Of a DNA stretch of 31,560 nucleotides, positions 4,298-10,517 are shown piece by piece. Each line of letters begins with the position of its first letter. Position 1 is the first letter of the stretch. A model generated the notes under the pieces. That model did not search any database. It was not told where the DNA came from and worked only from the letters and a program-made list of their open reading frames with translations. The stretch comes from a virus: positions 1-31,560 of the IMG/VR virus record IMGVR_UViG_3300025697_000095; one strand, given 5' to 3'. A program made the position numbers and the translations under genes.

Positions 4298-4346
4298 AGA
4301 CACATGGGTAAACGGTTAGACAACAAAATAAATAATTGTTATCAGC

Positions 4347-4400
4347 AATCCTCACGGGGGTTAGGTTCTAACCGACCTTCCCAACCCTGTGAGGATTTTT
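4347..4400 (+). terminator. terminator-like structured leader (possible attenuator)
   Basis: AATCCTCAC (4347-4355) pairs perfectly with GTGAGGATT (4389-4397), and GGG (4356-4358) extends the helix with CCC (4385-4387) across one bulged T, giving 12 bp. Inside lies a second hairpin, GGTTAG-GTT-CTAACC (4359-4373). A T-run (4396-4400) follows. It lies between the promoter at 4270 and the ATG at 4414, so it could terminate a short RNA or attenuate the initiator gene. Confidence 0.6.
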
Positions 4401-4413
4401 GGTTGAAATTATT

Positions 4414-5690: not shown

Positions 5691-6289
5691 AAATACTTCA
5701 ACTTTGTGCTGACACTGGTTCAGATACTAAACCATACCGAGACGCTGGCTATGAAGTTATTTTAGTTGGAAAGAATATTGGAGTAGAAAACTATCATCCA
5801 CCTAAAGATGTTTATGGAATAATTGCTAATCCTGTTTGCACTGAGTTTTCTACTGCCAGAAGTAACGGCCGAGCAAGAAATCCTGGTGAAGGTATGAAAC
5901 TTGTTAAAGAGTGTCAACGAATTATCTCCGAATGTAACCCAACTTTCTGGGTTATTGAAAATCCTGCGACTGGAGTATTAAAAAACTACTTAGGAAAACC
6001 AACTTATCAATATGAGCCGTGGTGGTACGGTAGTCCTTGGTCAAAGAAGACAGCTTTGTGGGGTAAGTTTAATATCCCACCCCGTGAATACCTTAACTGG
6101 GAAGATGTGCCTAAAATTGATGGACTTTACACTCGCCCTGGACGTCAGAAACCATCTCTAGCCTTTATGCACAAAAGTCATGCAAGACTTATCCCAGAAT
6201 TTTCTGGATTTAACCCCCAAAGCGATATGGAATTTAGGTCAATTTGCTCCCAGAAATTTGCTAAAGCGTTTTTTGAAGCAAATAAATAG
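5687..6289 (+). CDS. short C5-cytosine methyltransferase-like protein
   Basis: This 200-residue protein resembles phage-encoded DNA cytosine methyltransferase-like proteins. Motif I is LCADTGSDTKPYRDAGY (residues 6-22), equivalent to the SAM-binding CAGxGG region. Motif IV corresponds to ANPVCTEFS (47-55), where Cys51 is a candidate nucleophile, and motif VI is VIENP (89-93). C5 enzymes are usually above 300 residues with a target-recognition domain and motifs IX-X. Here those are shortened or absent, so target choice and activity are uncertain. The region PWSKKTALWGKFNIP is typical of this phage subfamily, as I recall it. It probably modifies phage DNA against restriction, or is a related nucleotide-modifying enzyme. 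Confidence 0.82.
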   Translation: MKILQLCADTGSDTKPYRDAGYEVILVGKNIGVENYHPPKDVYGIIANPVCTEFSTARSNGRARNPGEGMKLVKECQRIISECNPTFWVIENPATGVLKNYLGKPTYQYEPWWYGSPWSKKTALWGKFNIPPREYLNWEDVPKIDGLYTRPGRQKPSLAFMHKSHARLIPEFSGFNPQSDMEFRSICSQKFAKAFFEANK

Positions 6290-6316
6290 TTATCAACTTT
6301 TTAATAACCTTTACTA

Positions 6317-6345
6317 AAGACAAAACCCCTTTTTTATGGTAAAAT
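6317..6345 (+). promoter_or_regulatory. possible promoter giving an almost leaderless mRNA
   Basis: A weak -35-like AAGACA (6317-6322) and a good -10 TAAAAT (6340-6345) are 17 bases apart. The expected start of transcription (about 6352) falls at or just before the ATG at 6353, so the mRNA would be leaderless or nearly so. Confidence 0.4.
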
Positions 6346-6352
6346 AGGGTAG

Positions 6353-6631
6353 ATGGACTTAATTGAAGAAATTTCTCACCCCCTAGATGAAGTAAGGGCA
6401 GAACTTGCGGAATTACAACGAGAAATTAAGGCATATTTAAAGAACGATAAAAGGACCGTTATGCTAATCGACCCCGAAGGCTTAAAACCACCTTGGAATG
6501 AATATTATATTACCTACCCTTATAAGAAAGAAAAATTTATCGGTTGCTATTCACCTAAATATTCAAGAATGTTCTACATGTTCTACCGTAAGAGAAGTAA
6601 AGGTAGCCATCGGGAATACCAATTAATTTAG
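6353..6631 (+). CDS. hypothetical protein with N-terminal coiled coil, 92 aa
   Basis: Residues 1-30 form a Leu/Glu-rich amphipathic helix (PLDEVRAELAELQREIKAYL). The remainder is aromatic and basic (WNEYYITYPYKKEKFIGCY and MFYMFYRKRSKGSHREYQ), which suggests a compact nucleic-acid-binding or membrane-contacting domain, but no family is recognised. It starts directly after a -10 box and has no SD. It is the last gene before the structured RNA region at 6659, and its stop TAG lies 4 bases before a TTGACA box. Confidence 0.68.
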   Translation: MDLIEEISHPLDEVRAELAELQREIKAYLKNDKRTVMLIDPEGLKPPWNEYYITYPYKKEKFIGCYSPKYSRMFYMFYRKRSKGSHREYQLI

Positions 6632-6635
6632 CTCG

Positions 6636-6663
6636 TTGACAATAAGAAGTTAGTAAGTAGCTG
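6636..6663 (+). promoter_or_regulatory. possible promoter for structured RNA (consensus -35, poor -10)
   Basis: A perfect TTGACA lies at 6636-6641. At 16-base spacing the -10 would be TAGCTG (6658-6663), a poor match that overlaps the first helix of the RNA candidate. A shorter-spaced TAGTAA (6651-6656) is the alternative. Confidence 0.3.
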
Positions 6664-6955
6664 GAAAGCTATCCGACAATAGTCGTCTTGCTAGGATTGG
6701 CTTAAATGTAACCTAGTGCCAAAGACTATTGAAGGTTTCCAGCTCCTTGCTCGTTTCCAAGTAGAAATGAGTCGCTCTTTGAAAACATAGGGTTAGAGTT
6801 CGTTTCCTAAATGGTGTTGTGGTGGACTGTGAGCCACTAATAATGCGACTGTTATTATAATTACTATTCCAAATAAAGAGAAAAAACAAGAGACGCCTTG
6901 TTTCTAAGTATCTTGGTAAGCTCGTAATTTGCAAGTCAAACCTTGCCAACACCAT
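6659..6955 (+). ncRNA. structured RNA candidate, about 300 nt
   Basis: No credible ORF lies here, but many perfect helices do. AGCTGGAAA (6659-6667) pairs with 6736-6744 (9 bp). Nested inside, CAATAGTC (6677-6684) pairs with 6724-6731 (8 bp). Inside that, CTAGG (6691-6695)/CCTAG (6712-6716) interleaves with TTGGC (6697-6701)/GCCAA (6718-6722), either a pseudoknot or two alternative hairpins. A second domain is closed by ATGGTGTTG (6811-6819)/CAACACCAT (6947-6955), 9 bp. It contains TGGTGG/CCACTA (6820-6825/6834-6839), TAATAA/TTATTA (6838-6843/6852-6857, alternative to the previous helix at its base), AAACAAG/CTTGTTT (6884-6890/6897-6903) and GCAAG/CTTGC (6931-6935/6942-6946). The second domain has a faintly tRNA-like order but is no normal tRNA. 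It directly precedes the SD-driven gene cassette and could be a free RNA or its 5' leader. Confidence 0.55.
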
Positions 6956-6991
6956 CTAGGAAGCGAACAAAAAAAAGAAAGGAGGACAGTC

Positions 6992-7168
6992 ATAGACTGG
7001 GAAAGTGAGTTGTTTGAAAAGATGAACGCAGTTGTTGACCACCTTAGAGAACGTCCGCCCAACCTTGATAACGACGTCCTTTTCCAAGTCGCTGTCGATC
7101 AGGTGGTCACATCCATTACTCGCTTGGGGTGGGTCATCGAAAAGAGGATCAAACCAGAAGGGGGGTGA
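6992..7168 (+). CDS. hypothetical protein 1 of SD cassette, apparent AUA start
   Basis: The sequence AAAGGAGG (6978-6985) is an excellent SD, yet the only in-frame codon at proper distance is ATA at 6992 (6-base spacer). The next in-frame ATG (7022) is 36 bases from the SD, and a TTG at 6929 lies inside the structured RNA. From 6992 the product is 59 residues (DWESELFEKMNAVVDHLRE, then FQVAVDQVVTSITRLGW), a helical acidic/hydrophobic protein of unknown role. Either a rare AUA start is used or the ATG at 7022 is the true start. The stop lies 2 bases before the next ATG, and its G-rich end serves as the SD of that gene. Confidence 0.55.
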   Translation: MDWESELFEKMNAVVDHLRERPPNLDNDVLFQVAVDQVVTSITRLGWVIEKRIKPEGG

Positions 7169-7170
7169 CA

Positions 7171-7491
7171 ATGAACCCTGACGAATTAAGTCTCAGACGC
7201 TCCTTGTGGGTTTGGGAAAATAGGTTCATAACTGGCGACACGCCAAACATCTTGGCTCTCGCTAAAGAGAAAAACCAATTCGCACAGAAACACGGCTTTG
7301 CCGAACTGAAGCGAATAGTTAAGGAGGTTATCTATGGGTGTTTTCTCGAAAGGCAAGAGAGTGGAAATACCGGCGAGGTGGTATCACATTTTACTGCTAG
7401 CGCTGGGGATGGCAATCGCCTACCTAAGCCTCATCGGAGTAGCAATCCTCGCAAGCGGAAACTAAGACGAAAAGGAAGGAGGCGACGATGA
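7171..7491 (+). CDS. hypothetical protein 2 of SD cassette
   Basis: A purine-rich SD (AAGGGGGGTGA, about 7158-7168) precedes the ATG at 7171, which I prefer to an upstream GTG-type extension. Residues 1-60 look like a normal helical protein (LSLRRSLWVWENRF, then LALAKEKNQFAQKHGFAELKRIVKEV). The C-terminal 45 residues are Gly/Ser/Arg-rich and very basic. They coincide exactly with a different-frame membrane peptide gene (7334-7465), so the tail may be a by-product of overlap. The function is unknown. Confidence 0.55.
   Translation: MNPDELSLRRSLWVWENRFITGDTPNILALAKEKNQFAQKHGFAELKRIVKEVIYGCFLERQESGNTGEVVSHFTASAGDGNRLPKPHRSSNPRKRKLRRKGRRRR
7334..7465 (+). CDS. small membrane protein nested in another frame
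   Basis: A textbook SD, AAGGAGGT (7321-7328), lies 6 bases before the ATG. The product has 43 residues. A basic N-terminus (GKRVEIPARW) is followed by a strong transmembrane helix (YHILLLALGMAIAYLSLIGV plus AILA), ending SGN. It lies wholly inside the 7171-7491 ORF in another frame, an arrangement known for some phage lysis genes, but nothing here identifies a lysis role. The SD and helix make this frame at least as credible as the surrounding one. Confidence 0.62.
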   Translation: MGVFSKGKRVEIPARWYHILLLALGMAIAYLSLIGVAILASGN

Positions 7492-7610
7492 AATGTCCTC
7501 GGTGCGGAAAAGAAATAGGAGAATATAACGGGATGTGTGCAATTTGCGGTCTAATCAGACCCGCAGACCACGCCAAAGGAGGAAAGGATGAGAAGAAGCA
7601 ACCTCCGTAA
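7488..7610 (+). CDS. zinc-ribbon mini-protein, 40 aa
   Basis: GGAGG (7478-7482) stands 5 bases before the ATG. The protein begins MKCPRCGKEIGEYNGMCAIC, that is, a CPxC and a second CxxC separated by 13 residues, the layout of a small zinc ribbon. A polar Lys-rich tail follows. It overlaps the end of the 7171 ORF by 4 bases (ATGA) and the next gene by 23 bases. Zinc ribbons of this kind bind nucleic acid or protein, but the target is unknown. Confidence 0.66.
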   Translation: MKCPRCGKEIGEYNGMCAICGLIRPADHAKGGKDEKKQPP

Positions 7611-7971
7611 GTCTCTCGACATCGCTCTGTTGGTGGAGAAAGTTTTGACCATCGGTATCAAGTATATGGCCAAAGTTCTCGAAACCACCCCCGAACTATC
7701 TGACGAAGTGGTGGTCGCCATCGCCGAGATGTGCAACGCCATGCAAGAATGCCTCTCGCACTTTCAAAAGAAGACCATCCCCGACATCCAAGAGATGATG
7801 ACAATCTGGGGAGATGAAGGGCCAGAGAAGGAGTTCGAAGTCCAAGTCGAGGAAGTCGATTCGGTCGAAGAAGCCTTTGAAGAAGCCTTTTGCCCCGAAG
7901 AAGACGAGGAAGAAGACGACGAAAGCGAAGGCTACCAAGAAGGAGACGGCGAGGAGTGGAAAGACACATGA
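7588..7971 (+). CDS. helical protein with long acidic C-terminal tail, 127 aa
   Basis: GGAGG (7578-7582) lies 5 bases before the ATG. Residues 1-75 are helical and amphipathic (LDIALLVEKVLTIGIKYMAK, then VVAIAEMCNAMQECLSHFQ), and from about residue 78 onward the tail is dominated by Glu and Asp. Codon use (GAA, GAC, GCC and ATC) is consistent along the whole frame and differs from the AT-rich genes outside the cassette. Strongly acidic tails occur in DNA-mimic inhibitors and in chaperone-like proteins, so an anti-host function is possible but unproven. The +1 frame of the tail is a Lys/Arg-rich ORF (see rejected items). Confidence 0.7.
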   Translation: MRRSNLRKSLDIALLVEKVLTIGIKYMAKVLETTPELSDEVVVAIAEMCNAMQECLSHFQKKTIPDIQEMMTIWGDEGPEKEFEVQVEEVDSVEEAFEEAFCPEEDEEEDDESEGYQEGDGEEWKDT

Positions 7972-7986
7972 AAGGAGGTGTTTACC

Positions 7987-8112
7987 GTGCAAATTTGCCC
8001 TCACTCGGCGGAAACGCCAAAGACTCAGGCTCAATCGCTAACCCTAAACCCTGTTTCGCTGGACAGGTCAAACAAAACCAGCGAAATTAAGGGCTTAAAT
8101 GGAGATGGATAG
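7987..8112 (+). CDS. hypothetical peptide with GTG start, 41 aa
   Basis: The strongest SD of the cassette, AAAGGAGGTG (7971-7980), precedes a GTG at 7987 with 8 bases between GGAGG and the start. The product is a polar peptide (MQICPHSAETPKTQAQSLTL, then SLDRSNKTSE). An alternative is the ATG at 7968, which overlaps the preceding stop (ATGA) and gives a 40-residue Gly/Pro-rich peptide in another frame, but its SD position is poor. The last 59 bases overlap RNA hairpins starting at 8054, so translation may be limited or regulated there. Confidence 0.42.
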   Translation: MQICPHSAETPKTQAQSLTLNPVSLDRSNKTSEIKGLNGDG

Positions 8113-8323
8113 GACGCGTTCCTTACCCTCAACCTGTTCGATTCAGGTAAAGCCCATATTTGTTGCTAGCGAAAGACAAGTTAGGCAACTATTCTATCCG
8201 ACCATCTCCGTTGGGGAGGTAGATAATCAGGCAAAAGTGTGATAGGTCTATCGCTCTTAGCCGAAAGCCCGTGTTCGGGAACGGGGCTGGCGAGGTAAAA
8301 ACTAAAGTCCAAGGTCTCGCCAG
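8054..8323 (+). ncRNA. second structured RNA stretch
   Basis: Perfect or near-perfect helices include TTTCGCTGG (8054-8062)/CCAGCGAAA (8078-8086), GTTGC (8162-8166)/GCAAC (8185-8189), GTGATA (8239-8244)/TATCGC (8249-8254), CCCGT (8268-8272)/ACGGG (8281-8285), and CTGGCGAG (8287-8294)/CTCGCCAG (8316-8323, 21-base loop). A longer pairing joins 8101-8112 with 8194-8197 plus 8202-8209 (12 bp with a CCGA bulge) and would form a pseudoknot with the 8091/8150 helix. No ORF larger than about 40 codons is credible between 8113 and 8373. I do not recognise a known RNA class and checked for tmRNA, RNase P and group I/II intron signatures without success. Confidence 0.45.
8091..8156 (+). ncRNA. tRNA-like element lacking a D-arm (66 nt)
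   Basis: GGGCTT (8091-8096) pairs with AAGCCC (8150-8155) like an acceptor stem. ACCTG-TTCGATT-CAGGT (8132-8148) is a perfect T-arm, with a 5-bp stem and a seven-base loop carrying the TTCGA core. Between them 8107-8127 can form an arm (AGGA/TCCT around CGCGT plus outer GG/CC), where the anticodon arm would be. There is no D-stem, the loop has five rather than seven bases and lacks a proper T33, and no CCA is encoded. It may be a tRNA mimic, a decayed tRNA or a processing signal. Confidence 0.4.
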
Positions 8324-8332
8324 AATTAGACA

Positions 8333-8350
8333 TTTAACGGTTAAAAGCCA
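8333..8350 (+). promoter_or_regulatory. recurrent 5'-leader mini-hairpin, copy 1
   Basis: The motif tttaacGG-ttaaaa-gCCa lies 23 bases before the ATG at 8374. Related copies precede the next two genes (8470-8489 and 8781-8794). Confidence 0.35.
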
Positions 8351-8373
8351 AATTAAAAGTTTAAAGAAGAAAA

Positions 8374-8466
8374 ATGAATTATAATTTTCTATATCCAATT
8401 TGCGGAGCAGTTATCTTTTGGTTAATTTTCATGTTAATTTGTTTTATTCAAGATATTAGAAATTAA
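8374..8466 (+). CDS. small membrane peptide, 30 aa
   Basis: The ATG follows an A-rich tract, with GAAGA about 7 bases upstream as at best a weak SD. The peptide (MNYNFLYPICGAVIFWLIFM then LICFIQDIRN) is one hydrophobic helix with short polar ends, so a single transmembrane segment is expected. It is the first gene after the structured stretch and returns to the genome's usual AT-rich style. The function is unknown. Confidence 0.52.
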   Translation: MNYNFLYPICGAVIFWLIFMLICFIQDIRN

Positions 8467-8469
8467 CTA

Positions 8470-8489
8470 TTTAACGGCATAAATGCCAA
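8470..8489 (+). promoter_or_regulatory. recurrent 5'-leader mini-hairpin, copy 2
   Basis: The motif tttaacGGCA-taaa-TGCCaat forms a 4-bp hairpin 15 bases before the preferred ATG at 8504. The sequence between hairpin and ATG closely resembles that before 8809. Confidence 0.38.
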
Positions 8490-10193: not shown

Positions 10194-10517
10194 ATGGAAG
10201 AAAACAAAACAAAAACAGGAAAAGTAAAGAAAAACCTATTCAAACCAGGTGAATGTCCTAATCCCAATGGTCGCCCTTTAGGTCAGCGTAATTATTCGAC
10301 TATCTACAAGGAGGCTTTAATTAAGTTAGCTGAAAGTGAAGGCATCACTCCCGAAGATGTCGAGAATGAATTAATCAAAGGGGGATTAAAGCACGCTAAA
10401 AAGGATTATCGTTTTTATAAAGATGTGTTGGATAGATTACACGGTCAAGCTACTCAAAAACATGAACTCGACGCTAGTATCAATGTAACTGGCGTAGAAA
10501 TAAATGTTAGAGAATAA
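10194..10517 (+). CDS. small terminase subunit-like protein (DUF5681 type)
   Basis: The N-terminus has the FKPGECPNPNGRPLGQRN motif (residues 16-33), characteristic of DUF5681 proteins that precede large terminase genes. It continues with a helical region (STIYKEALIKLAESEG) and an RFYKDVLDRLHGQA segment. Proteins of this family are regarded as terminase small-subunit-like, recognising phage DNA for packaging. The gene overlaps the large terminase by 14 bases, which supports the assignment. No HTH is obvious. Confidence 0.8.
   Translation: MEENKTKTGKVKKNLFKPGECPNPNGRPLGQRNYSTIYKEALIKLAESEGITPEDVENELIKGGLKHAKKDYRFYKDVLDRLHGQATQKHELDASINVTGVEINVRE

Follow-up and report, generated by a model that had tools for sequence, protein, structure and literature searches.

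ROOL and GOLLD are large multi-helix RNAs of phages and prophages, and their function is unknown (PMC12286853). Positions in ROOL extend past 460 (PMC12286853). Many GOLLD RNAs are longer than 800 nt and they often lie near tRNA islands; assembly into homo-oligomers is a further mark of both kinds of RNA. Folded RNA is also found in the structured 5' leaders of bacterial operons (riboswitch-like and r-protein-like), where it stands directly before the Shine-Dalgarno (SD) sequence of the first gene, on the same strand.

The DNA analysed here (the window), 31,560 bases long, is a virus record of IMG/VR and, judging by its genes, a phage. It contains a structured stretch of about 319 nt, at 6652-6970 on the + strand. 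This is a real, strongly folded and unclassified element, ordinary in kind, and it probably represents a true structured RNA. It shares with ROOL and GOLLD the character of a large multi-helix phage RNA, as a prediction in the present case, but it is shorter than ROOL and than many GOLLD RNAs, and it has no match in Rfam. No tRNA or tmRNA is present in the window, in contrast to the frequent, though not universal, tRNA neighbours of ROOL and GOLLD. The predicted fold has the following parts.

6652 to 6970, + strand: whole element, made up of two domains plus two small hairpins, MFE -105.6 kcal/mol, z -6.17 against dinucleotide shuffles.
6653 to 6750, + strand: domain 1, with the stacked helices 6653-6657/6746-6750, 6659-6667/6736-6744 and 6677-6684/6724-6731 (pair probabilities 0.81, 0.98 and 0.99).
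6690 to 6722, + strand: apical region of domain 1, where hairpin 6690-6695/6712-6717 and helix 6697-6701/6718-6722 interleave, either as a pseudoknot or as hairpins that exclude each other.
6751 to 6770, + strand: linker hairpin 6751-6757/6764-6770 (pair probability 0.97).
6774 to 6793, + strand: linker hairpin 6774-6778/6789-6793, with two G-U pairs (pair probability 0.96).
6798 to 6968, + strand: domain 2, closed by helices 6798-6809/6957-6968 and 6811-6819/6947-6955 with one A/C mismatch between them (pair probability 0.99).
6820 to 6946, + strand: four branches within domain 2, at 6820-6839 (0.92), 6840-6858 (0.52, uncertain), 6859-6929 (0.78-0.96) and 6931-6946 (0.99).

The energy evidence for this element is decisive. 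The contig was divided into 98 non-overlapping tiles of 319 nt, in register with the element, and each tile was compared with its own shuffles. The tile of the element has the lowest z of all (-7.5), while the other 97 have a mean of -0.10, a standard deviation of 1.10 and a minimum of -3.18. Only the tile of the element had limits fitted to its own fold, and the gap is too wide to be explained by that difference. A first-pass annotation had proposed a multi-helix RNA candidate of roughly 300 nt, at 6659-6955, with folding against shuffled sequence as the check. The candidate is well supported by these controls, its energy being far below that of dinucleotide shuffles, and no known family fits it. 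The stretch at 6659-6955 is indeed structured (z -3.36), but the true limits are the wider ones given above. The region had also been described as free of open reading frames, which needs one correction: a mechanical ORF of 80 codons runs through 6713-6955 on the - strand, with no match in Pfam and none in phage records.

Every helix of the first-pass annotation is present at the place it gave, and two parts of the fold are longer than it had noted. Domain 1 has 5 more bp (6653-6657/6746-6750), and the helix that closes domain 2, put at 9 bp, actually has 12 + 9 bp and reaches 6968. This closure corresponds to a 22-nt inverted repeat (91%, 6798-6819/6947-6968). Pair probabilities are about 0.8-0.99 in all the main helices, and the exception is the one branch at 0.52. 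The density of exact helices had been thought hard to obtain by chance. This holds for the long ones, as the observed count is reached in only 1.3% of shuffles for perfect helices of 8 bp or more and in 1.0% for those of 9 bp or more; for helices of at least 6 or at least 7 bp the count is ordinary, being reached in 16-18% of shuffles.

The apical region of domain 1 resembles H-type pseudoknots in having two interleaved helices of 5-6 bp, and a pseudoknot-capable core had been claimed for it. Interleaved helices of 5 + 5 bp occur in 0.5% of shuffled versions of the 38-nt apical loop. When the whole 297 nt are shuffled, however, every one of 30 shuffles contains an interleaved 5-bp pair somewhere, and the feature is no proof by itself. 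The loops that join 6690-6695/6712-6717 and 6697-6701/6718-6722 are 1, 10 and 1 nt long, whereas in H-type pseudoknots the middle loop is typically short and the third one longer. The third loop of an ordinary H-type pseudoknot has to span the first stem, and 1 nt is too short to do so for a stem of 5-6 bp. Full coexistence of the two helices is thus hindered. Folded apart, the first hairpin has an energy of -16.6 kcal/mol and the second (forced) one of -11.3 kcal/mol, a difference of about 5 kcal/mol in favor of the first. With these loops and this energy gap, the pseudoknot claim is weak, and the apical region is better modeled as a single prevailing hairpin that may have an alternative state.

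The element is preceded by a methyltransferase-like gene and then by a 92-codon ORF that ends at 6631. On its other side are the following features.

6980 to 6985, + strand: AGGAGG, SD sequence of the first cassette gene, duplex energy -11.6 kcal/mol, weakly paired in the fold.
6992 to 8035, + strand: cassette of six small SD-led genes, with starts near 6992, 7171, 7334, 7488, 7588 and 7987, six SDs of -11.6 to -12.9 kcal/mol, and a GC content of about 50%.
8040 to 8345, + strand: another non-coding stretch, downstream of the cassette and possibly structured (MFE -114.9 and z -2.23 for 7975-8345).

Strong SDs are present in six of the six cassette genes, while among the other genes listed a clear SD is found only at 10194 (-8.4). 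The GC content of the cassette compares with 35-40% to the left and below 30% immediately to the right, and its third-position GC is higher. With this composition and these strong SDs, the six-gene cassette looks like an imported island. Its products include a zinc-ribbon-like protein and a small probable membrane protein. The first gene (6992) has a strong SD but ATA at the expected start codon, which may be a rare start or a variant.

The right-hand end of the cassette is also carried by another contig, L003, with two differences in the first 85 bases. A segment of 71 bases of that contig (L003:86-156), inside the last small cassette gene (CxxC), is missing at position 8005 of the window, where the gene is altered. 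The right junction therefore recurs with variants and is no artefact of a single assembly. The junction on the left, the site of the element, is seen in the present contig only, and the missing 71 bp indicate that variation or errors do exist. Both fit the view that the folded stretch is a functionless relic of the joining of the cassette, or that the left junction is an assembly error. The recurrence of the right junction argues against a simple chimera there, and the long, nearly perfect helices of the element have an undecayed look. We regard such an origin as improbable.

The fold energy of the - strand is -95.7 kcal/mol, as compared to -105.6 kcal/mol for the + strand, and both are significant (z -5.67 for the - strand). 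With DNA parameters the element also folds strongly (z -5.32). As a result, neither the strand nor the RNA nature of the element is proven; the + strand is favored by the calculated energy and by the direction of the neighboring genes. The same values are compatible with a function at the DNA level, in which the inverted repeats would form hairpins in single-stranded DNA at a replication or priming site or at a recombination-prone border. The position of the element at the border of a GC-distinct island fits this explanation as well, as do the strong inverted repeats in several intergenic regions of related phages, which were picked for strong folding and do not represent a general rule. On the other hand, the + strand fold contains nine G-U pairs, which are of no help to DNA hairpins and are favored by the minimum-energy fold anyway, and the island is not flanked by direct repeats such as an insertion would leave. 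An element of DNA is unlikely in our judgment, though somewhat less so than a relic.

A search with 4227 Rfam families (including tmRNA, RNase P, group I and II introns, ROOL and GOLLD) finds no match at the gathering thresholds in the whole window, in agreement with the first-pass annotation, which had recognized no tmRNA, RNase P or intron. With E values up to 10, the region 6280-8480 gives just two chance matches to microRNA precursors, on the - strand, and ten related loci have no Rfam match. A DNA similarity search of phage and plasmid records finds only short, weak matches, all outside the element. Exact pieces of the two domains, 20 and 19 bases long, are present in no viral contig. In relatives identified through the terminase, methyltransferase and DnaD-like genes, the element is absent by nhmmer and by covariance model, and for the 92-aa ORF and the helicase the method used finds no relatives in the viral collection. 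The covariance models R2 and R3, which cover the domains and are each built on one sequence, so that distant relatives may escape them, find no homologue in related viral and bacterial loci, in whole records (27 and 22), or in 380 genomes from the phylum to which contig L059 belongs (see below). A weak match of R3 in one of these 380 genomes (L153, E 0.0066) is antisense to a transporter gene and poor, and was taken as chance. An alignment of L016 and L018 gives no useful covariation because the part they share is identical.

Strong folds were noticed in other loci, too. In L028:6007-6512, very strong GGTACC-rich inverted repeats lie just upstream of the terminase genes. In the intergenic stretch L045:4539-4762, near a related methyltransferase gene, a long closing helix surrounds several hairpins, an outline like that of domain 2 in a different sequence. 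A terminase relative with 79% identity is found in the metagenome-assembled contig L059, of a genome of about 1.2 Mb, and the genomes listed in the sample of its phylum are mostly 0.5-1.2 Mb. From this relative and these small genomes, a small-genome, Patescibacteria-like host is tentatively inferred.

The two-domain, multi-branched fold with its high pair probabilities could belong to a free-standing phage noncoding RNA that is processed from its neighbors or transcribed apart from them and acts in trans. ROOL and GOLLD provide the precedent of large structured phage RNAs (PMC12286853), and the region of L045, near a methyltransferase gene, has a similar outline (z -5.86) without sequence similarity. 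However, there is no terminator-like site after the element and no promoter-like site just before it, perfect complementarity of at least 15 nt to the rest of the contig was not found, and the element is neither accompanied by a tRNA island nor matched in Rfam. A free-standing RNA is a possible but rather unlikely explanation.

The element is on the same strand as the neighboring genes and lies directly upstream of the cassette. The first-pass annotation had the second domain ending exactly where the cassette begins; there is in fact a gap of 11 nt between the last helix and the first SD. The + strand between the element and the cassette lacks terminator-like sites and has no promoter-like site either. 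In the predicted fold the leader is independent of the coding region, and the first SD is at most weakly paired. Given position, strand, the missing terminator and the largely open SD, the most economical reading of 6652-6970 is a cis-acting 5' leader, structured and transcribed together with the imported cassette. We adopt it tentatively, at somewhat less than even confidence; the missing promoter-like site just upstream of 6652, the significant folds of the - strand and with DNA parameters, and a left junction seen in this contig alone count against it. The arrangement is that of the structured leaders of bacterial operons, from which the element differs in matching no leader family, in having no evident expression platform and in leaving the SD largely open.

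As a 5' leader, the element would be transcribed rightwards together with the surrounding genes. With its two compact domains stopping 11 nt short of the first SD, an A-rich, unpaired site would stay free for ribosomes to land on. Either the stability of the mRNA or the access of ribosomes could thus be set by the leader, for a cassette that would rely on SDs, unlike most other genes of the phage. Moreover, CTCCTT at 6743-6748 could, as read from the sequence, pair with AAGGAG of the SD if domain 1 opened. A given hexamer occurs by chance within 319 nt with a probability of about 8%, and a switch of this kind is speculation.

The second non-coding stretch, after the cassette, has interleaved helices as well (GGGCTT/AAGCCC and GGAGATGG/CCATCTCC, within 7975-8345), together with a T-arm-like CCTGTTCGATTCAGG, and the region has no Rfam match. 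A 12-base similarity between the element and 8040-8345, CTATCCGAC(A/C)AT, would be expected by chance about once in five by our own estimate, and is given no weight. Elsewhere in the window, a strong hairpin followed by a T run is located between the helicase and DnaD-like genes (4346-4401) and is probably a terminator or attenuator.

A bolder reading is that the element belongs to a previously undescribed class of phage RNA, one that would travel with the SD-dependent cassette and enable its expression, or insulate it, in a phage and host where translation otherwise starts without SDs. We consider this a long shot. If the element is transcribed, the phages of small-genome environmental bacteria, so far little explored, would gain a structured RNA outside the known classes. 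It borders a rare island of SD-led genes in an SD-poor phage, which is a natural setting for testing the translation of imported genes.
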